From positions 1 to 39,522 of the forward strand of contig SUWE01000023.1 of assembly GCA_015061615.1 (NCBI GenBank): 39,522 nt of DNA. Reading direction: 5' to 3'. How positions within the stretch are numbered: the stretch's first letter is position 1; each line of letters begins with the position of its first letter. Positions 22,803 to 33,881 of this stretch are shown here, in pieces. The translations under genes and the position numbers were made by a program. Below the pieces are notes generated by a model, which saw nothing but the letters and a program-made list of their open reading frames with translations, ran no database searches and had not been told where the DNA came from. This DNA is from Lentisphaerota bacterium (GTDB taxonomy: Bacteria > Verrucomicrobiota > Lentisphaeria > Victivallales > Victivallaceae).

Positions 22803-25685
22803 TTATTTATCTGCAGGAGTGAAAATGAACCAGTATGTTGAACCGGCTTCTGCGTTGATTTTTATCTTATCAACATTTTTGAATTCCTGTCCGTTAAAAA
22901 CATTTTTTACATTAACTTTGCCGGGCAGAAGGATTTCTCTTTCGCCATTCACCATGCTGTGCAGCATCATGAAGTTGCCGTCTGTTGCACACTGGAATCC
23001 GGGAGTGGATACAGCATAAGCTCCTGCTTCGCGTACCAGATGATTGAAATAATCTGGACTCAAACTGCCGGGTTCGCCGATATAAACCGATTTCCATGTG
23101 CCGTTGTTGCGTTCAACGATAGCAGCTTTTTTGTTATATGCAAAACTGGCAAGGATTTTATCACCGTAACGGGGAACAACGTAAACCTTTTTCATGGAAT
23201 CATACCACGCCGGTTTGACTTCCGGATGCGGATCCTTCAGGTTCATATATGATGACAAGGTGAGGAATTTTGAATTTTTACTCTTTATCAGGTGGTGATT
23301 GGTCGTACGGTCGGTTGCAACGACTTTGAATTCACTGCCTCTGTTCATGCCTCCAAGGCGTCCTGTTCCGGAAAGGAATATCAATGTCCGGTTACTGTTT
23401 TTCAACGAATCAAGCAGTTTCTGTCTGGGCTTATCAATATAATACATTCCGGCAAAGACCAGAACCTTGAAGGATTTTGCCAATTCCGGATTTGCGATCA
23501 GGTCGTTAAGGGAATAGTATGCGTACGGAACACTGGCTGAACCGAGTTTATTGTGCTGTTCTGCAACCAGTTGGGTCATATCAAACATCCACTCAGGAGA
23601 GGGCAAGTTGCGCAGGAACATCTGGTCATCGTCAACAACAAAAGCAGTATCCGCTTTCCAGTCAGACGGTTTCATGTTTACCAGCTGATTTCCAATTTCA
23701 TTGACCTGTTTGATATCTTCAAGTATTTGAGGATGATTGAACCAGCCCGGAGCCATATCCAGATACCAGAATCCCATGCTTTTGGCAAACATACTTCCCG
23801 CAAGTTTGCGGTTGGCTGCCTGCCACATCGGGAAATCTATCATCAATCCCCAACCGATGCTCATGATCTCTTTTTCCCACGACGGCGCTGCACACCAGGT
23901 GCGGATATCAAATTCATCGGTGTACATTTTGCCGTGCAGATGGAATGAATCCAACGGAACTCTGCTCATTGTCGGTGATGAGGGCGGGCGCAGATTGTAC
24001 GGAGCCTGCGCAACGAGAATATCAAACTTCTGATTGGTCATGAAGTCGTAAATATCCAGTGAAGACCCGGGATTGCCGGAGTATGGCCCCATGCACCAAC
24101 GCATGGTAAACACATCCTTGCCCATCATCTTGCGGGCGTGTTCGCCCATCTCGTCAGCCATGCGCCAACCGGCAAATTTATTGAATTTGAAGAAATCTAT
24201 GTAGTTGCGTTCTGTTACCGGATTCAGGCAGTCATCGTTCCCATTGAACACCGGCGCCTGGGCATTTTCAAATGTCACAGTCGGGTTGTTCCACGCTTTG
24301 CGCAGAGCTTCAACGGTTTTGTATTCTTCTTTGAGAAATTTGCGGAAGGCTTTTATCGCCGGTTTACTGTAATCGAAGTGAGTAACAACCATCTGATTGT
24401 CATGTCCGCCAGCCATGTGGATACCCACGATTGCTTTGCTCAATTTAGCTTTTTTCAAACCGTTGATAATATTGGTGATCTGTTCTTTATAGTGCGCCTT
24501 TAACACTTCGGATTGATAAGAGGGCCAAATGTAACGGGTATCACGTTTATCGGGGCCGAGACTCTCATTGATATGGATACCGGTTCCGTAGACGAACTGA
24601 CCGTTTTTACCGACCCATGATTCTTCCGGATAATCTTTGGTAAATTGCCAGTAAGGATGCAACCCGATTGAGAGAATGATTTTAGCATCCGGGTTGAGCC
24701 GCAGGGAATTGCGGATCTGCTCAATGGCACCATCCAGATTGAATTTGTCTTTTCCTGCCCAGCATCCGCGATAGGTGTTTTCAGGATACCCCTGACCGAG
24801 ACGGATCGCAACCTTGCTCAAGTTCACTCCGATTGCTCCGAAATCTTTTACATTGGAGTAAGTTTTGCCGAGAATGAATGCTCCATAAGGACCGTCAATC
24901 ACGGGGGCAGTTATTTTACCGTCAATAAGCAGACGGCTTTTCCCATTGATTTTTACAACTTTACCGGTATGGTCAATGGATTTTTCCAGAATCTTATCCA
25001 ATTCTTCGTTGGAGATCATCTCCGGACTTCTGTCAACCGGAGGGCGGCGGTTGAGGTTTTTATTCCAGTTTTCTGCCGAAATATTATCATCTTCGATATA
25101 GAAGTCATCCCAAACCGCAACAGAAGGGGCGCCGGCAAGGATCAATGTCGGTTCTAAGACGCTCGTATCTTTTTCCACCTTGCGCTGGGTGAATTTGCGC
25201 TCCCAGGTGTTTTTCGGAGTCATGATGATCTCCTGCATTCTGTCTCCACCGTTGAGACCGGGATAAAAGCTGAATACTTTGAAGTTTTTCTGTCCCGGGG
25301 TCTGCATACGGAGCATCGCTTTTGAGTAAAGCGGGGTGTTTTTTCTGCCCTGATAAAAGGAGTTGAATTGCAGTTTTTCGCCCTCTTTTACCTGAATCGT
25401 TTTTTTGAATTTGATAACAATAAAACCATCGCTGTTGCTTTTTACTGTCCGCAATGCTTTTTTTCCGGTACGGGCATCGGATTCAATGATTTCAACTTTT
25501 CCTCTGGCTCCGCCGAAATATTTTACTTCGTAAGGTATTTCACTGCCTTCAAAACTTTCGTGCCAAATGGCGTTTTCAAAAGTTGTTTTACCGTATCGTT
25601 CCGGATTGGAACTGCTCCACGCTTCGCCGGCGGAGAGCATCGCACCGGTAATAACAGCTGTCGAGCATAAAATTCTTTTTACCAT
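22803..25685 (-). CDS. Large secreted protein with GH42-like (clan GH-A) glycosidase domain
   Basis: A 960-aa exported protein. Residues 1-25 form a signal peptide. Residues about 30-200 look like a carbohydrate-binding beta-sandwich (FENAIWHESFEGSEIPYEVKYFGG... VWDDFYIEDDN). A TIM-barrel region follows. Its stretch AIVGIHMAGGHDNQMVVTHFDYS and then KPAIKAFRKFLKEEYKTVEALRKAWNNP resembles the beta-galactosidase (GH42) pattern in which the chain after the acid/base strand reads AFxxWLxxKYxTxxxLxxAW. The C-terminal third includes a trimerisation-like segment (VLVFAGMYYIDKPRQKLLDSL) and a terminal beta domain. The acid/base glutamate of typical GH42 is not obvious at that position, so catalytic activity is uncertain. 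Last gene of the LacI operon, three bases after its neighbour; AGGAG lies ahead of the ATG. Confidence 0.65.
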   Translation of the reverse strand: MVKRILCSTAVITGAMLSAGEAWSSSNPERYGKTTFENAIWHESFEGSEIPYEVKYFGGARGKVEIIESDARTGKKALRTVKSNSDGFIVIKFKKTIQVKEGEKLQFNSFYQGRKNTPLYSKAMLRMQTPGQKNFKVFSFYPGLNGGDRMQEIIMTPKNTWERKFTQRKVEKDTSVLEPTLILAGAPSVAVWDDFYIEDDNISAENWNKNLNRRPPVDRSPEMISNEELDKILEKSIDHTGKVVKINGKSRLLIDGKITAPVIDGPYGAFILGKTYSNVKDFGAIGVNLSKVAIRLGQGYPENTYRGCWAGKDKFNLDGAIEQIRNSLRLNPDAKIILSIGLHPYWQFTKDYPEESWVGKNGQFVYGTGIHINESLGPDKRDTRYIWPSYQSEVLKAHYKEQITNIINGLKKAKLSKAIVGIHMAGGHDNQMVVTHFDYSKPAIKAFRKFLKEEYKTVEALRKAWNNPTVTFENAQAPVFNGNDDCLNPVTERNYIDFFKFNKFAGWRMADEMGEHARKMMGKDVFTMRWCMGPYSGNPGSSLDIYDFMTNQKFDILVAQAPYNLRPPSSPTMSRVPLDSFHLHGKMYTDEFDIRTWCAAPSWEKEIMSIGWGLMIDFPMWQAANRKLAGSMFAKSMGFWYLDMAPGWFNHPQILEDIKQVNEIGNQLVNMKPSDWKADTAFVVDDDQMFLRNLPSPEWMFDMTQLVAEQHNKLGSASVPYAYYSLNDLIANPELAKSFKVLVFAGMYYIDKPRQKLLDSLKNSNRTLIFLSGTGRLGGMNRGSEFKVVATDRTTNHHLIKSKNSKFLTLSSYMNLKDPHPEVKPAWYDSMKKVYVVPRYGDKILASFAYNKKAAIVERNNGTWKSVYIGEPGSLSPDYFNHLVREAGAYAVSTPGFQCATDGNFMMLHSMVNGEREILLPGKVNVKNVFNGQEFKNVDKIKINAEAGSTYWFIFTPADK

Positions 25686-25688
25686 AAT

Positions 25689-26891
25689 TTACTCCTGTTG
25701 AAAGATGTTAAATGTATCAATCAATGAAAATTTATTATCTTCGGAAACCGCAGAAAGTTTATATTTCCCTGCGGGAATCGCACTGCGGATACCCAACTCA
25801 ACAGTTGCGGCTTTTTCCGGTTTCAGCTCCGGAAATTGCAATTTACCCACTGTATACATTTTGCCGTTTTCCGCAGTCAGAGTCAACTCCCATGTTTTTG
25901 CAGAAACCGGAGCTGAACTTTGCATCGTAAAAATGAATTTTCGCGGGGCGGAACTTATTTCGGCATAAAATCCTACTGGAATATCATCAACTTTGAAAAC
26001 CTCTGAAAGGTTTTTCAGTTCAGAAAAATAGATGTAGTCGAATTTGAATTTTTTACTTTTCTGTGACGGGATTTCTTTTGCCGCGGCAATAAACTCCATT
26101 GTATGCACTCTGATTGTTTTGTAGGTGTAAAAAAGAGCGCCGTCTGCGGCAAGATCATCTGTTGTCAGCAGGACAAACAATCCCGGTTTGCGGTCATCTT
26201 TTGCGGCTATCCACGGACGGGCAGGAACTGCAAAAACTTCGCGGTCGGCAAGATCTTTTTCCGGAAAAACCATATCTGTTTTTACAAATTTAACTCCGCG
26301 TCTGCCGACAAGTTTAATACCGCCTTTTATCGGCATTATGATCGTGTCGATCGCCGGTTCCTGACTGAGACACTGGATTATATTTTGCCACACAGCAGCA
26401 CTGAACGGCTTTTTTGCATGATTGAAAAGTTCGATTTCAACCTGAAATGCCGTAGAATCCTTTTTCAACGATACAGTTTTGGTATATTCCAGATTCTGCA
26501 TCCGGTACCAGCGGTCTTTCACCTGGATGAGAGATTTTTCAGGATCACTTTCCAATCTGGTGATTTTTGCAGGAAGTTTGCCGAAAGTTGTAACTTTCCA
26601 GAGAAAGTCATTTATCATTCCTCCCTCCGGAATACAGTTCGGCGGAAGCAAATCATCCGTTTCCACGTTCAGTATCAACGGTTTCATCAGCTCGCGTTTT
26701 TCGGGCAGATATTTGAATCCGGCAGTGATTGCTCCGAGTTTCGGAACAATATCAAAAGTTATCAAGCCGTTGTTGAAGTTATAAGCTGTATAACCATCAT
26801 TGAGTTCGCGTTCTGTCAGGGCGCTGACCGATCGTGTTGCACAACCGGTCAGCAAAATGGCAGCAAGAAGAGAGAATAGAAAATTTTTCAT
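25689..26891 (-). CDS. Lipoprotein with mutarotase-like domain, unknown function
   Basis: The 400-aa product has a lipoprotein signal with lipobox LLTGC (Cys near residue 17), so it should be membrane-anchored. The section GYTAYNFNNGLITFDIVPKLGAITAGFKY resembles the opening of galactose-mutarotase/aldose-epimerase-like beta-sandwiches. The C-terminal 110 residues (FTMQSSAPVSAKTWELTLTAENGKM...) look like an immunoglobulin-like domain. I do not recognise a named family. AAAGGAG is upstream, and the start overlaps the preceding stop (ATGA), so it is translationally coupled to the 929-aa gene. Sugar binding or anomer handling is inference from fold resemblance and operon context. Confidence 0.55.
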   Translation of the reverse strand: MKNFLFSLLAAILLTGCATRSVSALTERELNDGYTAYNFNNGLITFDIVPKLGAITAGFKYLPEKRELMKPLILNVETDDLLPPNCIPEGGMINDFLWKVTTFGKLPAKITRLESDPEKSLIQVKDRWYRMQNLEYTKTVSLKKDSTAFQVEIELFNHAKKPFSAAVWQNIIQCLSQEPAIDTIIMPIKGGIKLVGRRGVKFVKTDMVFPEKDLADREVFAVPARPWIAAKDDRKPGLFVLLTTDDLAADGALFYTYKTIRVHTMEFIAAAKEIPSQKSKKFKFDYIYFSELKNLSEVFKVDDIPVGFYAEISSAPRKFIFTMQSSAPVSAKTWELTLTAENGKMYTVGKLQFPELKPEKAATVELGIRSAIPAGKYKLSAVSEDNKFSLIDTFNIFQQE

Positions 26892-29677
26892 TCAAAGTAT
26901 CTCCTTTCCGGAATATATTTGCCATTCATCCCGAAATGAGCAAGCTGATCTCCGTAGATTCCCATGCTGCCGTAAAATTTGAAAATGTGGGGGAATTTGA
27001 TATCCATCACAAAAGCGAACTGCCGGATCATTTCTTCGAGTGTCTTTGTATTTTTGGCGCGGATGAGTATTGCTCCGTTTGCAAGTTTTTCGATGGTATT
27101 GGCTTTATCCGGAACGATCTGTAAAGAAATTGCATCTTTGCGGTTCAAGCTGGAGTCATTGCGGGAAACCGGAGGAGTTCCCCCTTCCGGCAGAACCTTG
27201 TACTTGTAACAGAATGCAAAATATTCATCAAAACGCTTGCTGAGTTTCATAGCCTCTTCATCGCTTTTAGGCACATGTATGCGGAATGAAAGTTTCTTAT
27301 TGGCATCAACAAACGGGAAACTGAGGATCTCATCCTGTGTAATATTGAAGAAATCCGACTTGTAACGGATCGTCAATACACTGTTTGCTTTCAAATCCAC
27401 ATTTTCCACCTTGTATTCATTGCCGTTATCTTTGAAAGAAACTGTTTTGCCATCGACATCGACCGCAGCAAGGTGAAAAAATCTTATTTTTCTGAATACC
27501 GCAGAAGTTGAAAACGCTTTATCAACTTTTACAGAGAAGGTCATCTTTTCAAGTTTCTTATCCCCGTTTGCAACTGCTGAAAACGCGGCAGGTGCATTTT
27601 CAAAACCGCAAACGGTTTCATAAAGAACAGGAACACGCGACGGCAGAACAGTATCAACTTTTGTAAAGTTGTCTGCAATATTATTGACTGTCTCAGATTT
27701 ATTGCGGAGCTTTTTCAAAAACACAAAACGGGGCTTGCCGTCTGCGGTCAGGTCAATATTGTCAATACTGAGCGTTCCGGCAGAATCTTTTTTAGAGGTG
27801 TTGCCGAAGAAGAAGAAAGTGTTTGCGCCTTTGCCGTAACGGGAACAGTACGGTACATAAAGGTCTTTGCTGAATGCTACCGGGGTTGAACTCTGCCAAC
27901 CGGCACGGATCAATTCCAGTGACTCCGGAATGATGTAAACCTGCTGGGGGTTGCCGTAGAATGTGACAAATGTCTGATTCAAACCCCATTTGAATTGATT
28001 CATGATCTGATAATCAGAAAGCCGCTGGATCAGGTCGATAAATTCCGGAGTGGTACGGTTACGCCAGTCGGGCATCATCTCTTTGAAAAGGAATCCGTGA
28101 CCGTGAACATTGCCGGGACGCGGTCCGATGAACCAGCGGTAAAGCGGCAGCATTGACCGATGAGCAGCAACATTGAGGAACGGACGTTCGAGCATGCAGA
28201 TATCCCCCTTCAAGCTGCCGTTGTTATGAACAGTGAGCTGATTCGGGGCAGGGCGCAGAGAGTGGATATAATCCACCACATGGTTGACCGCCACACTCTG
28301 ATCAATGAATACTCCTTCATTATCCCATGCTCTGCCAGCAAGCGGCTTTTTAACAGCAGGACCACGATAGTAAGCACCGCCGCCACCGCAATCCAGTGCA
28401 AATCCAGGCAAGTCCAGCTCTTCAGTCAGAAACTTCATATCTTCTTCAAATACTTTTGCCCAGCTGGTTCCCATCGGGAATACGCGAACTTCCCAGTCAT
28501 GGCCCGTACTCCAGCCTTTTATCAAGGTTACAGTCTTTTTATCTTTAGTAAGTGAATCAGGGTAATGTTTTTCAGCAAGCTGTCTTTCACACCATGTGCC
28601 AGAACAGCTGTTGTAGAACATCCAGCCGTAACGTTTGCCGTGTTTGAGATAATTCTCTTTGCGGATCTTGCGGTACTCTTCAGCTGTATTATGTTTGTAA
28701 TTGGTTGAAACGCCGCCGAATTTCGCACGGTTTTTATCCTCGATCGGATTGTCAGGGGTATACTTCATCAACTCATCTTTGATTACCATATCACCTGCGC
28801 GGAAATAAGGGGCGTATGCCCATTCGTGGGTATAATAAAGACGGCGGGATTCCTCTGGACGCGGGGTGCTCCACCAGTTACGGTAATGGGCGCAGTTACC
28901 CCATGCGTAAGGGTTATCCTGTCCACCGACAACAGCCCACACTTCAGGAAATGAATCATAATGCTGCTGAATGATACGCTCGGCAGCCCCGTAGGCGCTT
29001 TCAGAAGCAGCAATCACATGACGGAGAGGCACTGTCTGTCTGGGGGAAATAACAAAACGCTGACTGTAGCTGTATTTATTGACAGAGGGAATATATTCAA
29101 CAGCCGTATAGCTTACTGGATCAAAAGTTACATGACCTATGGATATGGCATTTTTATCACTGAATACGGCAGTGGCAGCGAAAGCAATGGCACTTGATGC
29201 AACATGTTTCAAAACTGCGCCTTTTATCCCTTCGCGGGAAACTGGTCCATTGGTAACAGGGCGGCTGCTGCCAAAACCATCCCACAAATTCAGTTTTTTA
29301 TTTTTCCAATCAGGCGCAAGTGAAAATATCTGCTCGATAAAAAGTTCTTCATTTCCTTTATTGACAAATACTGATTCACCGAGAATAACGCGTTCTCTAG
29401 CAGAAAATGTCAAATTCCATGTCAGATCGGGCATCTTGTAAACAACTGTTATTTTTCCATTATTTTCGGAAATTTCAGGTGAGGGAAGTTTTATAAATTT
29501 CTTCGCCTTACCGTCATAAAGAGACATTGTCAAAGGAGCACTCTTCCAGTCTCCGCCAATCTTGTTTTTGAGAACAAGTTTACCGTTGTCAACAGACAAT
29601 TCAGCTGTTCGCACTGATACAGAGGCATAAAGTGCCGCTGCACAAAAAAGGAGTAAAGATATCCAGATATGTTTCAT
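26888..29677 (-). CDS. Large secreted protein, glycoside-hydrolase-like, family not recognised
   Basis: The ATG at 29677, with AAAGGA upstream, gives a 929-aa protein; a longer in-frame start at 29725 overlaps the previous gene and lacks a ribosome site. Residues 1-19 are a signal peptide (MKHIWISLLLFCAAALYAS). The first 250 residues resemble the beta-sandwich that precedes catalytic barrels in GH31/GH36/GH97-type enzymes. The central region is rich in Trp, Tyr and Gly and has acidic strand ends (GFALDCGGGGAYYRGP, GVFIDQSVAVNHVVDYI) that suggest a TIM barrel. A C-terminal beta domain follows. I cannot name a family or point to catalytic residues with confidence. It overlaps the downstream lipoprotein gene by four bases. 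Confidence 0.6.
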   Translation of the reverse strand: MKHIWISLLLFCAAALYASVSVRTAELSVDNGKLVLKNKIGGDWKSAPLTMSLYDGKAKKFIKLPSPEISENNGKITVVYKMPDLTWNLTFSARERVILGESVFVNKGNEELFIEQIFSLAPDWKNKKLNLWDGFGSSRPVTNGPVSREGIKGAVLKHVASSAIAFAATAVFSDKNAISIGHVTFDPVSYTAVEYIPSVNKYSYSQRFVISPRQTVPLRHVIAASESAYGAAERIIQQHYDSFPEVWAVVGGQDNPYAWGNCAHYRNWWSTPRPEESRRLYYTHEWAYAPYFRAGDMVIKDELMKYTPDNPIEDKNRAKFGGVSTNYKHNTAEEYRKIRKENYLKHGKRYGWMFYNSCSGTWCERQLAEKHYPDSLTKDKKTVTLIKGWSTGHDWEVRVFPMGTSWAKVFEEDMKFLTEELDLPGFALDCGGGGAYYRGPAVKKPLAGRAWDNEGVFIDQSVAVNHVVDYIHSLRPAPNQLTVHNNGSLKGDICMLERPFLNVAAHRSMLPLYRWFIGPRPGNVHGHGFLFKEMMPDWRNRTTPEFIDLIQRLSDYQIMNQFKWGLNQTFVTFYGNPQQVYIIPESLELIRAGWQSSTPVAFSKDLYVPYCSRYGKGANTFFFFGNTSKKDSAGTLSIDNIDLTADGKPRFVFLKKLRNKSETVNNIADNFTKVDTVLPSRVPVLYETVCGFENAPAAFSAVANGDKKLEKMTFSVKVDKAFSTSAVFRKIRFFHLAAVDVDGKTVSFKDNGNEYKVENVDLKANSVLTIRYKSDFFNITQDEILSFPFVDANKKLSFRIHVPKSDEEAMKLSKRFDEYFAFCYKYKVLPEGGTPPVSRNDSSLNRKDAISLQIVPDKANTIEKLANGAILIRAKNTKTLEEMIRQFAFVMDIKFPHIFKFYGSMGIYGDQLAHFGMNGKYIPERRYFE

Positions 29678-29700
29678 GATTTTTCCTTTAAAATACAAAA

Positions 29701-30348
29701 TCAGTTTTTCTTCCAATTTACCCAACGGACTTTGTCATATTTCCATCCCTTTATCGGAGCGACAAGACCGAGGGTTTTCTGAGAGTGATTTTCGACATGG
29801 CCATCAAGCATTGCGTAATTTGCAGATTTATTCTGGTGAATTGGATTGTGATCCTGATCCCAGCAGCTTGTCGGTCGCAGTTGAATTGTTCTTGCATCAC
29901 CGAAATAAACTACATAAGAAGGATTGACCACTTTTTTGATATTGCAGGGCCAGCTTTTCATGTGCTTTTCACCGGAATCACTCAAATAGTAGTTCATTCC
30001 GTAACTGATATAACCGGCGTTGTAAAAGCGGGGGAGCAATTCATCGACTTCAAATGCTCCGGCACCACGCCGGGAATCTGCCGGACAGGAAAAGTGGATG
30101 AAGTCTTTCGCATACGGCTTGAGATACTGCGGCCAGTATTCCCAGGTGCGTTTACGCACGATCATCGGCTGGAACTGCCCGTCATGCTCTTCCTGATACA
30201 TGAATCCCATTTTTGCCACCTCTTTCAAGTGGCTGGCACAGGTCAGCTGCTTATTCTGTTCCGACATATATTGCAACATCGATCCCCCGGCGGTAAATAA
30301 ACCGCCGAGGATGACGCATACAAGGATCAATTCCCGGAAATCTCTCAT
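29701..30348 (-). CDS. Divergent pseudopilin-like protein (type II secretion/prepilin family)
   Basis: The 215-aa protein has a hydrophobic N-terminal helix (ELILVCVILGGLFTAGGSML). It continues like the pseudopilin proteins common in Lentisphaerae: CASHLKEVAKMGFMYQEEHDG, then FSCPADSR, YGMNYYLS, VVYFGDA, and the tail IHQNKSANYAMLDGHVEN. That tail corresponds to the H-X9-DG domain, here with ten residues between His and Asp. The usual FTLIELL cleavage motif is lacking: the start reads MRDFRELILVC. It may be unprocessed or processed differently. The ATG overlaps the SGNH-hydrolase stop (ATGA). Confidence 0.7.
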   Translation of the reverse strand: MRDFRELILVCVILGGLFTAGGSMLQYMSEQNKQLTCASHLKEVAKMGFMYQEEHDGQFQPMIVRKRTWEYWPQYLKPYAKDFIHFSCPADSRRGAGAFEVDELLPRFYNAGYISYGMNYYLSDSGEKHMKSWPCNIKKVVNPSYVVYFGDARTIQLRPTSCWDQDHNPIHQNKSANYAMLDGHVENHSQKTLGLVAPIKGWKYDKVRWVNWKKN

Positions 30349-31883
30349 TTTAAAGGTGAACCTTTCTCTGCCAGAGCTTTGAGGATCAATCCGGCAACCT
30401 GCTGATTACCGGCAGGGGTGAAATGGATGCCGTCTCTGACGAACCATTTCGGAATATCGGCATTGCCTTTCATTGCGGAATAAAGGTCGATGAAATAGCA
30501 GTTGGTTTCAGCGGCAACTTTTTTCAGCATGGCATTGAAGGGCAGGACAAACTCCGGCAGACCGAAGATCGCACCGGGGCCGCCGTATTTGGCAGAGAGC
30601 GCACCCTGTTTTTTGCTGACTTCCACGTTGTTGGCAACCGGAGTAATCAGCACGATGGGAGCTTTGCTTTTTGCCCGGAGTTTTTCGATCACGCGTTTGT
30701 ATGATGCCTCGGCATCTTTGAGGGCGACCTGCGGCACTTTGTACTGGGCTTTGTAGAATGAAGCACAATCATTGTGACCGAGGAAGATCAGGATCAGGTC
30801 ATAAGGACGGTTGAAGATGGGATCATACATATACTGACGCCACTGATTTTGGGAACCGGGCAGATTGGCTTTTTTATCCATACGTCCTTCAACACGGGTG
30901 ATGAAGTCGCCGCCGACAGCAAGATTCTGGAAAGATGCTTTGCCGGGATTGTGTTTATTGAGCCAGAAAGAAAGTTTGTCGGCATGGTTGTTGTCACGCT
31001 CAAAATCGGTGACGCTGTCGCCGATATAAAGGATATGAAGCGGTTTGGCAAGTTTGATGGAAGCGGCAACTTTATCCAGTTCATCATATTCAGCTGCCGG
31101 CATCACATAACCGTAAGTCACGGCATTGCGTCCTCCGGCAGCGGCGATCAGGGTGACTTCTCCGGCGGGAAAAGTGGCGGCACCTTCATAAGTGACATTA
31201 CCTTTTTCATCATTAATGGCAGATGTGATCACCGGCATATTTTTGGTATTGCCGGAAATTGCGAAAAAGGTAATGGTTTCATCGGGAGTGGTAAAGTTGA
31301 ATTTGACCTTCGGCAGAGCTGCCCCCTCTCTGATGATCTGATGACCGTCAAGAGATTTCATGACCACAGCTTTGGGTTTCTCAAAAATGATGTCAAGGTC
31401 ATCAATGTAAGCTGTTCCTTCACCTTCTATGCGGATAGCAGGAGAACATCTTTCGACAAAAGAGGTCGTATAATCGGCGATATATTCAACTTTCTGCCAC
31501 TGGTCATTGAGTGTTACCGGCTGACAGTATACCCAATCCATTTTTTCTCCGCCTTTGCCGTTGCGGGTATAGTTGAGTACACCGGCTTTGATGTTTCCGG
31601 TACCTTTTGCATAAAAGGAAAGTCTGACTTTGGTTCCGGAAAGATTTTTTGCCGTAAGCGGGCAGATTGCCAGAGCATAAACTTTTTTGTATTTTTCCGT
31701 GGCAACCATTTTCATCGAACCTTTACCGGTTCGGGCAGCTTCCGTGGAACGGGTCGTTTTTCCGCCCCAATAGTTGTATGTTACCCAGCCGCCAGTATTG
31801 CGTTCAAAGGTGTGGTGAAAATCTGCGGATGCCGAAAAAGCAGTTGCAGCTGCTATGACTGTCAAAACTTTTGAAATTTTCAT
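30345..31883 (-). CDS. Secreted SGNH/GDSL hydrolase with N-terminal carbohydrate-binding-like domain
   Basis: A 512-aa exported esterase/lipase-like enzyme. Residues 1-20 are a signal peptide. Residues about 22-175 form a beta-sandwich with a family-typical FHHTFERNTGGWVTYNYWGG start and an AYIDDLDIIFEK end, as in carbohydrate-binding modules. The SGNH fold follows a linker: block I ILYIGDSVTDF (nucleophile Ser290), block II LAVGGDF (Gly), block III IFLGHNDCA (Asn) and block V DGIHFTPAG (Asp484, His487). Such enzymes often remove acetyl groups from polysaccharides. ATG 31883 has AAAGGAG upstream; the in-frame codons before it are not needed. It is the third gene of the operon and overlaps the divergent pseudopilin gene. 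Confidence 0.82.
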   Translation of the reverse strand: MKISKVLTVIAAATAFSASADFHHTFERNTGGWVTYNYWGGKTTRSTEAARTGKGSMKMVATEKYKKVYALAICPLTAKNLSGTKVRLSFYAKGTGNIKAGVLNYTRNGKGGEKMDWVYCQPVTLNDQWQKVEYIADYTTSFVERCSPAIRIEGEGTAYIDDLDIIFEKPKAVVMKSLDGHQIIREGAALPKVKFNFTTPDETITFFAISGNTKNMPVITSAINDEKGNVTYEGAATFPAGEVTLIAAAGGRNAVTYGYVMPAAEYDELDKVAASIKLAKPLHILYIGDSVTDFERDNNHADKLSFWLNKHNPGKASFQNLAVGGDFITRVEGRMDKKANLPGSQNQWRQYMYDPIFNRPYDLILIFLGHNDCASFYKAQYKVPQVALKDAEASYKRVIEKLRAKSKAPIVLITPVANNVEVSKKQGALSAKYGGPGAIFGLPEFVLPFNAMLKKVAAETNCYFIDLYSAMKGNADIPKWFVRDGIHFTPAGNQQVAGLILKALAEKGSPLK

Positions 31884-31922
31884 TTTTTTTACTCCTTTCT
31901 GCAATTAGAAATTAAATTTTTA

Positions 31923-32666
31923 TTAAATATCCTTGGAACCCCATACTTCATGAGAGGGGCTGAAGGGCCATGGCGGAGTGAATGCTCCAACATGACCGTC
32001 AAAATAGGTGAAATTTGCTGATTTTCCGTGGCGGATATCGATTCCCTTGGTCAGAAGAGCGTTGGCATCGGCCATTGATCCATCCCAAGACCATACAGCC
32101 GCATTGGTACGGGTATAGGCAAATGTTCCGTCGCCTTTTCTGGCAGAAGTGTCGGTTATTGCCATGATCACAGACGGATTTTTAATCTGATTCATTTTAT
32201 ACTGAGGATTGGTATTGTTGCTGTCAAAATAACCGAAGAAACGATTGCCGCTGTTACTGCTGGTTCCTCTTTCTCTGCCGTTGACAGTGTAACTGCAGAA
32301 ATATCCCGCTGGACGGATATATTCTTCTGCTGGTTGAGAGGGACAGAGTAAAACTTCTTCTCTGTAAGAATTAACACCTCGACTGCGGTCAACAGAGACA
32401 TTCGATACGCCGAGATAAGGCAGAAGTGTTGTGTGCCAAACATCCTGTTTTCTGCCTTTATCAAAAAAGCATGAATAAGTATTATAATTATCGTTATCAT
32501 CGTGATAAAGACTCAAAGCATTACTCATTTGCTTGAGATTGTTTATACAGCTGGCCGCACGGCCTCTTTCTCTTGCTGAATTAAGTGCCGGGAGCAGGAT
32601 CGCCGCCAGTATTGCAATAATGGCAATAACGACCAGCAGCTCGATCAGGGTAAAATGTTTTTTCAT
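31923..32666 (-). CDS. Pseudopilin-like protein with H-X9-DG tail
   Basis: A 247-aa type IV pilin-like/type II secretion protein. The N-terminus is [20 protein letters not shown]: a short basic leader, the FTLIE class III motif and a long hydrophobic helix. Position -1 is His rather than the Gly usually demanded by prepilin peptidase. The body holds the [20 protein letters not shown] segment. The tail [21 protein letters not shown] contains the H-X9-DG motif (TIGR04294-type) exactly. Large numbers of such proteins are typical of Lentisphaerae/PVC bacteria and are thought to form surface structures, though their cargo is not established. It starts four bases after the LacI stop with AAAGGAG upstream. 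Confidence 0.87.
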
Positions 32667-32670
32667 TGTT

Positions 32671-33714
32671 TTATTCTCCTTTGTTAGGGGTTGTTGTTTT
32701 ATTTTCGGGTCTCAAATGAAGTTTCAGTTTCAAATGCCGGCTGAAAGGCTGATTTTTATCCATTTGTTCAAGCAGTATTTCTATTGCCTCTGTGACCGGA
32801 TGTTCCGCAGAAGCCACCGGATAGGGATTGGTGCATATCGCTTCGATGTTGTTGAATCCTGACAGAAAAACATCTTTGCCAATGCGGATGTTATGTTCAT
32901 GTAACCACATGATTCCGCCCAATGCAAATTTATCGGTAAAATATGCCAATGCTTTCGGTGGAGTATTTCTTGAAAATGCGATTTTTGTTCCTTTGTATCC
33001 GAGTTCAAATGCTTTGATGTTGAAGTTTTTTTCTTCCCAATCAAGCTGGGGAGTGCTTATAATATAGTCATTTATTGAATCTGAAATGTTTTTTTCTGCC
33101 AGAATTGTTTGCAGTGCCAAGTATCTGGCACAGTTTGTGCTGACCGGCGCAGGCAGTATCAACTGCGGAATTTCTCCGGTTTGCTCTATTAAAAAACGGA
33201 GGATATCTGTCGAAGCCTCTATTGAGCCGGATTGTAAATTGCGGGAAAAATAGGAGTTCCAACCGATAAAAGTACGGTTGTTTTTCAACAATTCAGCTTC
33301 GATTTCAAAATGTCCCATCGGACTGCCGATGAAAATAAAGTGTTCAGCTCCGCGGGTGATCAAATCCCTGATTTCGCGGAGATTATTATCGGCATCAGGA
33401 GTCATCATATTGTTGAAGTAGGTGGCATATCCGCGGCTGTTGAGTTCCTGCATCAATTTCAAAAGCAATTCCCGCACATGTTCATCGCTTTCGATTTGCC
33501 GCATTCCGGAAACGATAGCAACCGTATGAGTGGCTTTCCCCCTCATCAGCCTGTAACCGAAATTCGGGCGGTAGCCGCTTTCTCTGGCAATACGCAGAAT
33601 TTCTTCCCTCCGCTGCGGAGAGACCCGGCAATTTGTCTTGCCGTTCAATACAGCAGAAACTGCCTGATAGGATACTCCCGCTTCGGCGGCTATGCTTTTT
33701 ATTGTTGCAGGCAC
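32671..33714 (-). CDS. LacI-family transcriptional regulator
   Basis: The GTG at 33714 gives a 347-aa protein beginning with the LacI-type helix-turn-helix [25 protein letters not shown], the hinge region [15 protein letters not shown], and a periplasmic-binding-protein-like effector domain with [14 protein letters not shown] sits about 6 bases upstream. An ATG at 33753 is in frame but would place the start before the helix-turn-helix and inside the predicted operator. The recognition helix is normal; hinge Leu-type contact residues are less clear. Its gene is the first of the seven-gene operon and an inverted repeat near its promoter suggests it represses itself and the operon, released by a sugar ligand that cannot be predicted. 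Confidence 0.87.
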
Positions 33715-33736: not shown

Positions 33737-33757
33737 TTGATTGCATCGTTCAATCAA
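33737..33757. promoter_or_regulatory. Candidate LacI-family operator
   Basis: TTGATTG (33737-33743) and CAATCAA (33751-33757) are a perfect 7-bp inverted repeat with a 7-base spacer. A second palindrome, TCAAATTTGA, lies at 33731-33740. They fall just downstream of the predicted -10 box, where a bound repressor would block initiation. It is a candidate site for the adjacent LacI protein. Confidence 0.5.
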
Positions 33758-33759
33758 TA

Positions 33760-33787
33760 AATATAGTCAAGATTTTGAAAAATGCAA
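33760..33787 (-). promoter_or_regulatory. Putative promoter of the LacI operon
   Basis: Minus strand: TTGCAT (33787-33782), 16 bases, TATATT (33765-33760). Transcription would start near 33753, inside or next to the inverted repeat. Confidence 0.5.
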
Positions 33788-33820: not shown

Positions 33821-33861
33821 AAAAAAAGTCCCGAAAACTTTTGAGCAAAGATTTCGGGACT
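33821..33861 (-). terminator. Rho-independent terminator of the rubrerythrin operon
   Basis: AGTCCCGAAA (33827-33836) pairs with TTTCGGGACT (33852-33861) across a 15-base loop. On the minus strand the stem is followed by a run of Ts (As at 33821-33827). It lies 20 bases after the rubrerythrin stop. Upstream the A-rich unit AAAAAGTC recurs three times (33801-33830), without known role. Confidence 0.85.
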
Positions 33862-33881
33862 CAGCAAAAATGTCTGCCGTT

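Follow-up and report, generated by a model that had tools for sequence, protein, structure and literature searches.

A contig of 39,522 nucleotides from a Lentisphaerota bacterium of the family Victivallaceae (SUWE01000023.1, assembly GCA_015061615.1; hereafter the window, or contig C41) carries a minus-strand operon in which a LacI-family regulator is followed by two pilin-like proteins and four exported or lipid-anchored proteins. The order of these genes is beyond chance: it recurs in a relative (locus L056), and a shorter core cassette, comprising the pseudopilin PIL, the pilin-like protein F4, the exported protein F0b and the lipoprotein F3, recurs in more genomes. The repeated pairing of pilins with secreted sugar-related proteins suggests that sugars are handled by a system that may need no transporters of the Bacteroides type. 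The draft genome to which the window belongs comprises 2.71 Mb in 109 contigs and is 84.65% complete.

An operon of seven genes

An earlier note on this stretch had described seven minus-strand genes as one operon. All seven are open and complete and stand in the order it gave:

32671..33714, minus strand: LacI-family regulator, 347 amino acids, GTG start; helix-turn-helix and sugar-binding domains (PF00356, 43.2 bits; PF13377, 32.2 bits), both over cut-off.
31923..32666, minus strand: PIL, H-X9-DG pseudopilin, 247 amino acids; PF07596 46.7 bits (cut-off 23.3), TIGR02532 22.8 bits (cut-off 16.3), exact H-X9-DG.
30345..31883, minus strand: secreted SGNH/GDSL hydrolase with an N-terminal CBM4_9-like region, 512 amino acids; PF13472 71.7 bits, over cut-off.
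29701..30348, minus strand: F4, leaderless pilin-like membrane protein, 215 amino acids; M-R-D-F-R-E start and H-X10-DG near the C-terminus, from alignments and start context.
26888..29677, minus strand: F0b, exported protein, 929 amino acids; its family (19-member alignment) has no Pfam model.
25689..26891, minus strand: F3, lipoprotein with a possible supersandwich (mutarotase-like) fold, 400 amino acids; lipobox LTGC, weak YidC_periplas match of 16.5 bits.
22803..25685, minus strand: GH42-like exported protein, 960 amino acids; PF02449 27 bits (cut-off 21), GH42 chains of the PDB at E 7.5e-6 (profile).

From the LacI gene to the GH42-like gene the gaps are 4, 39, −4, 23, −4 and 3 bases, within the range of −4 to 39 that the note had reported. 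Its count of three ATGA overlaps has to be reduced to two (SGNH hydrolase/F4 and F0b/F3), F3 and the GH42-like gene being separated by the 3-base gap. The note's statement that every product except the regulator bears an export signal or a pilin-like N-terminus agrees with our reading of the sequence by eye, which finds signal peptides on the SGNH hydrolase, F0b and the GH42-like protein, the lipobox on F3, a prepilin-type N-terminus on PIL and an N-terminal membrane helix on F4. The SGNH esterase-like and GH42-like genes are accessory to the core cassette.

Recurrence of the cassette

Eight close copies of F0b are found in the draft genome (one each on C1, C40, C41, C47, C52 and C76, and two on C55), and F4 precedes seven of them, the exception being C40. 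Together with 20 named relatives (L056 to L075) and the loci L127, L129, L130, L132 and L133, these make 33 F0b loci, counted by eye. F4 stands beside or near F0b at 26 of the 33, on the other strand in L069 and L075; F3 is present at 29, absent at the first C55 copy and undecidable at L059, L064 and L075. The loci without F4 include four (C40, L067, L073 and L074) that share a variant cassette, PIL-F3-F0b-F3, with a second F3 where F4 would stand. This variant sits behind a gene for a protein of about 612 amino acids, which is GH127 by Pfam in C40; the genes at the same position in L067, L073 and L074 are similar to it in size alone. At the remaining three loci, which are cut or disrupted (L059, L062 and L063), F4 was not seen, apart from a fragment at the end of G099:C106 that we took as the same contig as L062. 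Some neighbours cannot be judged in L062, L063 and L064, which reach contig ends, and L059 (frame disrupted and not read through) and L075 (partial, and a near copy of L069) were left out of the work on F0b itself.

The closest relative of the window F0b (70% identity) comes from sheep colon, and its locus, L056, holds all seven genes in the order of the window, the contig ending within the last of them. All 20 named relatives come from genomes assigned to Lentisphaeria, Lentisphaerae or Victivallaceae, several of them from the ruminant gut. A LacI gene heads the operon in the window alone among the eight copies of this genome and lies upstream in several relatives. Three distant F0b relatives (C92, C70 and C8) also lie inside pseudopilin operons. 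The comparison of neighbours in related genomes that the earlier note had called for thus favours its idea of a system, in that homologous pseudopilins and hydrolases adjoin repeatedly.

Across 137 genomes of the order, a strong F0b match (over 700 bits) occurs in 19 and an F4 match (over 75 bits) in 17, all of them within the 19 (Fisher 8e-20; both bit limits were chosen after the lists were seen). These counts consider the best 22 candidates per genome for F4 and the best six for F0b, two of the copies of our own genome falling outside the latter. F4 is missing from two of the F0b genomes, G082 and G083, and both hold the variant cassette, on contigs taken as L074 and L073. At E 1e-10 the F4 profile matches 69 of the 137 genomes, the weaker matches being presumably ordinary pseudopilins. 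Of 387 genomes sampled evenly over the phylum, 18 have an F0b match at E below 1e-50 among the best two candidates per genome, and all 18 belong to the same class; a search of plasmids gave no F0b match at E 1e-5.

Co-divergence of the cassette proteins

The four proteins also diverge together. For 25 of the 33 loci, after F0b copies closer than 20% distance had been collapsed, and with 14 to 21 loci per pair, the distance correlations are 0.88 for F0b and F4, 0.90 for F0b and F3, 0.88 for F4 and F3, 0.86 for F0b and PIL, and 0.73 for F4 and PIL, each reached in none of 5000 permutations. Among the paralogues of the draft genome, distances to F0b correlate at 0.83 for F4 (17 of 5040 permutations), 0.78 for F3 (4 of 5040) and 0.71 for PIL (11 of 120).

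Two broader propositions were set aside. Co-divergence of pilins with their neighbours over the whole genome found weak support, and we keep the claim for the cassette alone. The neighbour test spanned four genes on each side and so did not count the pair C41-C11: the GH42-like genes of this pair match at 54.7%, but the one in C41 stands five genes off. A single clade of cassette pilins is not supported either, since nine changes are needed on the pilin tree, against 19.2 in shuffled data; this tree is a quick one without bootstrap, in which three rows were relabelled by hand as non-cassette.

F4, a pilin without a leader

We read F4 as a leaderless pilin, starting at its own methionine and retaining a pilin-like glutamate. 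In normal pilins this glutamate occupies position 5 of the mature protein. In the alignment of F4 proteins Met1 and Glu6 are invariant (11 of 11), and a glutamate lies five residues after the start codon at 23 of 24 inspected loci, the start not being visible in L072; this reading needs a GTG start in L042 and was made from an upstream frame in L064 and L069. In L142 the glutamate lies four residues after the start. The window F4 has no prepilin leader and no Pfam match, and its score against TIGR04294 (13.7 bits) lies below the cut-off of 19. Its kinship to pilins is visible all the same: a profile built from PIL proteins alone gives the F4 proteins of relatives 24 to 69 bits.

A missed leader, which would make F4 an artefact of gene calling, was considered and rejected: the methionine is preceded by an in-frame stop, 2 to 7 codons upstream, at 9 of 23 loci, the upstream frame continuing further at others. 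Among the seven F4 copies of the draft genome, six lack a leader; the seventh, on C52 (L141:9488-10123), has a prepilin-like leader, MKKARRFS, ahead of FSMVELLLV. Since this copy retains the leader, its loss in F4 looks derived, and the C52 copy is a possible evolutionary intermediate.

Pseudopilins and their regulators across the genome

The draft genome contains 56 matches to PF07596 and 14 to LacI, two of the latter under the Pfam cut-off. Stretches around the pseudopilins were fetched and their genes called with a simple dicodon finder of our own, so gene starts are approximate; the statistics below come from these stretches, the LacI figure alone starting from the whole-draft list. A regulator lies within five genes upstream of 36 of the 56 pseudopilin genes, 17 of the 36 being divergent. 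These regulators are AraC-type in 16 cases (15 divergent), GntR-type in 11 (2 divergent) and LacI in 9. The AraC and GntR labels were assigned by eye and then sampled with Pfam, which upheld AraC in 5 of 5; of the five GntR-type proteins, three score over the cut-off and two under it. A LacI-type sugar-binding domain scores over a model's cut-off in four of five GntR-type regulators scanned, which implies a sensor part common to the GntR-type and LacI proteins and a different DNA-binding part. The four lie near pseudopilins at L028:197-1279, L046:5367-6443, L023:5298-6338 and L039:14283-15281. For 5 of the 14 LacI genes (on C7, C41, C47, C55 and C77) a pseudopilin is the very next gene (binomial about 1e-5, assuming 2400 genes in the genome).

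By a crude signal-peptide rule of our own, 37 of 49 genes that directly follow a pseudopilin look exported, as do 95 of 181 genes inside pseudopilin operons, against 28 of 151 outside them in the same stretches. A Pfam tally of the partner proteins covered 73 of 82 listed proteins, the nine others being cassette members, with one to five proteins of the set in each family. It includes glycoside hydrolases (GH78, GH106, GH28, GH42, GH123, GH38, GH2 and GH35), DUF6259, a laminin-G-like lectin, CBM4_9 and CBM9, as well as oxidoreductase and transporter families. The association proposed in the earlier note, of pseudopilins with exported, often carbohydrate-related proteins and sugar-type regulators, holds over many loci of the genome.

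PIL itself scores 20.9 bits against the Pfam N_methyl model, just under its cut-off of 21.2. The H-X9-DG motif, exact in PIL, is exact in 32 of 54 pilins of the genome and present in a looser form in 44. Prepilins as a rule have glycine just before the cleavage site, at −1; PIL has histidine. Among 54 pseudopilins of the genome, glycine stands there in 4, serine in 17, cysteine in 9, histidine in 7 and arginine in 6, with phenylalanine at +1 in all 54; in relatives, glycine occurs in 2 of 26, and the four pilins of the type II secretion cluster (L134:11459-13581) have R, V, K and N.

Long proteins with SGGxxxNTTV-like repeats, which resemble adhesin or autotransporter passengers, are encoded in this genome at C7:25583, C46:92640, C47:7598 and on C97 (L138), several of them next to pseudopilin loci. 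A short called frame of 196 amino acids at C21:12533-13123 begins MKRVLGIDLGTNSLGWAIIEGNKI, a start that resembles that of Cas9.

F0b, F3 and the accessory enzymes

F0b has no credible match to a known protein family. Matches to three Pfam families each come from a single one of the 19 members, with E no better than 0.015, and sequences of the PDB match at E 0.2 or worse. An assignment to GH42 or another known hydrolase was rejected on these grounds, a profile comparison with the GH42-like protein giving a probability of 0.2%; a grouping of the two proteins proved to be an artefact of single linkage, probably through a module of about 250 amino acids common to other members.

The labels that the earlier note gave to two other products stand in part. 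F3 is a lipoprotein, as stated there; 'mutarotase-like' is a soft label based on sub-threshold matches, among them YidC_periplas (cut-off 24), and no family is consistent across 21 F3 members. 'GH42-like' has a Pfam match behind it, across 126 residues only, and is soft as well. The acid/base of GH42 enzymes lies in an Asn-Glu pair. Where a GH42 chain reads VSNEYGCH, the window profile reads AGGHDNQ, in an alignment that is weak at this point, and the aligned pair is missing. The GH42-like protein may be a binding protein, or may catalyse through other residues. The SGNH/GDSL hallmark consists of GDS and DxxH blocks, and the SGNH hydrolase has both (IGDSVTD and DGIHFT); its CBM_4_9 match, at 25.5 bits, is just short of the 25.9 cut-off. 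Because GH127 occurs at C40, an AXE1 esterase beside C1, GH2 at C76, and the SGNH and GH42-like proteins in the window, the substrate is probably an acetylated, arabinose- or galactose-rich plant polysaccharide.

Secretion machinery and transporters

A cluster on C65 encodes a secretin, an ATPase, a GspF-like protein and four consecutive pilins in a layout running from gspD to gspK; the ATPase and secretin are Pfam matches, the remaining gsp names resting on layout. Further ATPases (PF00437) match on C7 and C97, and secretins on C10, C12 and C96. There is one match to prepilin peptidase, which keeps the Cys pairs and the GxGD motif and looks canonical. The TonB plug (PF07715) has no match in the draft genome; the same model, as a control, matched in 3 of 14 genomes. 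The earlier note had seen no SusC or SusD. For SusC our result agrees, within the draft; SusD is missing from the Pfam matches of the window operon, no search of the genome having been aimed at it.

Boundaries and a candidate operator

The upstream limit of the operon is marked by a terminator after a rubrerythrin gene, followed by a promoter-like site and a palindrome:

33826..33862, minus strand: intrinsic terminator between rubrerythrin and LacI; hairpin of −20.1 kcal/mol, then a T-run.
33760..33787, minus strand: promoter-like TTGCAT-16-TATATT, upstream of the palindrome; found by eye, conserved with L056 in an alignment.
33737..33757, minus strand: palindrome TTGATTG-N7-CAATCAA, candidate LacI operator; counterpart at the same place in L056.

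TGATTG-N7-CAATCA and the promoter are also found upstream of the LacI gene of L056 (palindrome at L056:2977-2995). No further operator copy, with arms of six bases and a spacer of seven, occurs in the fetched sequence beyond these two LacI genes. The promoter-like site, with a weak −35, is not in the list of a consensus scan, which gave 25 sites against 20.9 expected and was not used as evidence. At the other end, the 103 bases ahead of the downstream phosphoesterase gene hold hairpins without a T-run, and the terminator scan lists none there.

How the cassette might work

From the observed gene order, its recurrence, the co-occurrence and co-divergence of the products, the machine genes and the lack of a TonB plug match in the draft, we infer a possible course of events. 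A sugar-responsive LacI protein would keep its own promoter closed through the palindrome, and the presence of a glycan fragment would lead to expression of the entire unit. Prepilin peptidase would trim PIL, and the shared machinery of type II secretion or of a pilus would insert it; F4, needing no trimming, would remain in the inner membrane and pair with F0b. Together they would form a dedicated adaptor, exporting F0b and the glycan-active proteins encoded with it or retaining them at the cell surface, and each locus would for this reason have a pilin subunit of its own, for its own cargo and glycan. That dedicated pseudopilin adaptors export glycan-active proteins or hold them at the cell surface is our leading account, to which we give slightly less than an even chance. 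A fuller form, a modular glycan-utilization system of Lentisphaeria, free of SusCD, with a pseudopilin from each locus, a common secretion or pilus machine, and in the F0b branch a leaderless F4, made without prepilin peptidase but retaining the pilin glutamate, as the obligate membrane partner of F0b, a new surface protein of about 930 residues that processes glycans, is conceivable but on the whole unlikely.

Several observations weigh against the adaptor account. Twenty of the 56 pseudopilins show no regulator in range, contig ends and regulators outside our profiles being among the cases. The partner tally covers partners alone and includes a phosphatase, a DNA methylase, a beta-lactamase fold and an endonuclease/phosphatase with no evident tie to glycans. 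F0b operons lack a standard pseudopilin in L057, C52, L069 and L075, and the operon on C76 has as its second pilin-like gene one without a leader. Common descent accounts for some of the co-divergence seen between species, and when every pseudopilin locus of the genome is considered, pilin and neighbour are weakly tied (the observed value is reached in 39, 102 and 42 of 2000 permutations). The cassette pilins fall into several clades, though they are clustered (none of 500 shuffles is as low as nine changes); with the weak sharing of neighbours, the lack of a single clade indicates that the pilin can be exchanged. The genome is also a draft, 84.65% complete.

The same elements could serve other ends. 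In one account, which takes up the idea of glycan capture as an alternative to SusCD from the earlier note, PIL and F4 would form or tip a surface fibre that binds glycan, retracts and draws it to F0b, F3 and the enzymes. The additional PF00437 ATPases and secretins outside the C65 cluster and the carbohydrate-binding and lectin-like domains among the partners are compatible with such a filament, and in planctomycetes pili-like fibres bind gold-labelled dextran (PMC5394234). Those fibres are, however, not tied to H-X9-DG pseudopilins in the available part of that report (PMC5394234), no binding module is recognised in PIL or F4 by Pfam or NCBIfam, and F4 is not open to the processing that normal fibre subunits undergo; a capture filament seems to us rather doubtful. 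It is improbable that the pseudopilins are instead a multigene surface family, co-exported and co-regulated with their neighbours as part of a general surface variation and without mutual action. Their large copy number in the order (lower bounds, from the best approximately 34 candidates per genome), the weak matching of pilins and neighbours over the genome and the swapping of pilins between cassettes speak for such passengers, but the co-occurrence of F4 and F0b and the retained order PIL-F4-F0b-F3 at many loci would be left unexplained.

Finally, membrane pilin-like proteins could report contact with a glycan and, in the role of a sensor or anti-repressor, help to switch the regulator next to them. 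The closeness of regulators to so many pseudopilins, within five genes upstream at 36 of 56 and divergent at 17, fits this role. LacI proteins, however, normally bind a cytoplasmic sugar themselves, a LacI-type sugar-binding domain is present in four of five GntR-type regulators scanned as well, and the use of three regulator types would require several signal routes, so that we consider sensing very improbable.

Comparison with known systems

The nearest parallel in print comes from Verruconatronum alginivorum, in which a pulG-like pseudopilin lies inside an alginate cluster up-regulated on alginate, and in which a second pseudopilin, also over-expressed, is encoded away from the two main clusters (PMC13274419). 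That genome has 67 homologues of the pulG-like protein, and the authors, with one proteome replicate per treatment, propose export of alginases by the type II secretion system (PMC13274419). As here, a multicopy pseudopilin has a copy inside a substrate-induced cluster of polysaccharide genes; the alginate case differs in concerning one locus of one isolate, which also has TonB genes, and the part of the account available mentions no leaderless pilin, F0b family or pair of LacI and pilin and draws no general rule (PMC13274419). Since a pseudopilin in an alginate cluster of Verrucomicrobiota is in print, the kind of arrangement is already known. Polysaccharide-binding pili-like fibres, in the crateriform structures of planctomycetes, likewise occur in a bacterium of the Planctomycetes-Verrucomicrobia-Chlamydiae (PVC) group, but in another phylum, and the portion of the report at hand does not name the fibre protein (PMC5394234).

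The Sus-type polysaccharide utilization loci of Bacteroidota share with the present operon a regulator, secreted and lipoprotein glycan-active proteins, an inducible operon and many instances per genome; here, the draft yields no TonB plug match, and pseudopilins occupy the place of SusC and SusD. The GspG-K pseudopilus shares the N-terminal pilin helix with F1 and E5, and such a cluster exists in this genome. PIL differs in lying away from the machine genes, in its length (247 amino acids against 139 for the first pilin of the cluster) and in its H-X9-DG end, and F4 differs in having no leader. The Verru_Chthon cassette consists of pilin-type proteins of PVC bacteria; PIL, at 23.5 bits against a TIGR02596 cut-off of 70, is not a member.

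Among the titles and beginnings of abstracts of the best-ranked literature matches, which mostly exclude subscription papers, we found no description of the cassette, of an F4-type leaderless pilin or of the regulator-pilin pattern. Against the literature in reach, the cassette, F4 and F0b look new.

Implications

PVC bacteria carry greatly multiplied H-X9-DG/DUF1559 pseudopilins, with 56 copies here, 67 homologues in Verruconatronum (PMC13274419) and 74 DUF1559 genes in Rhodopirellula baltica (PMC2754498). For this multitude our results provide a claim that can be tested, namely that every pseudopilin has its one regulator and its one group of glycan-active proteins that are secreted, and they supply a compact, conserved unit on which to test it (PIL, F4, F0b and F3), together with a family of about 930 amino acids that has no Pfam model. 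They also present a pilin lineage seen in the midst of losing its leader, with one copy that has it and six that do not in the same genome. If true, the proposed system would be another way for a Gram-negative bacterium without SusC/D to handle plant polysaccharide.

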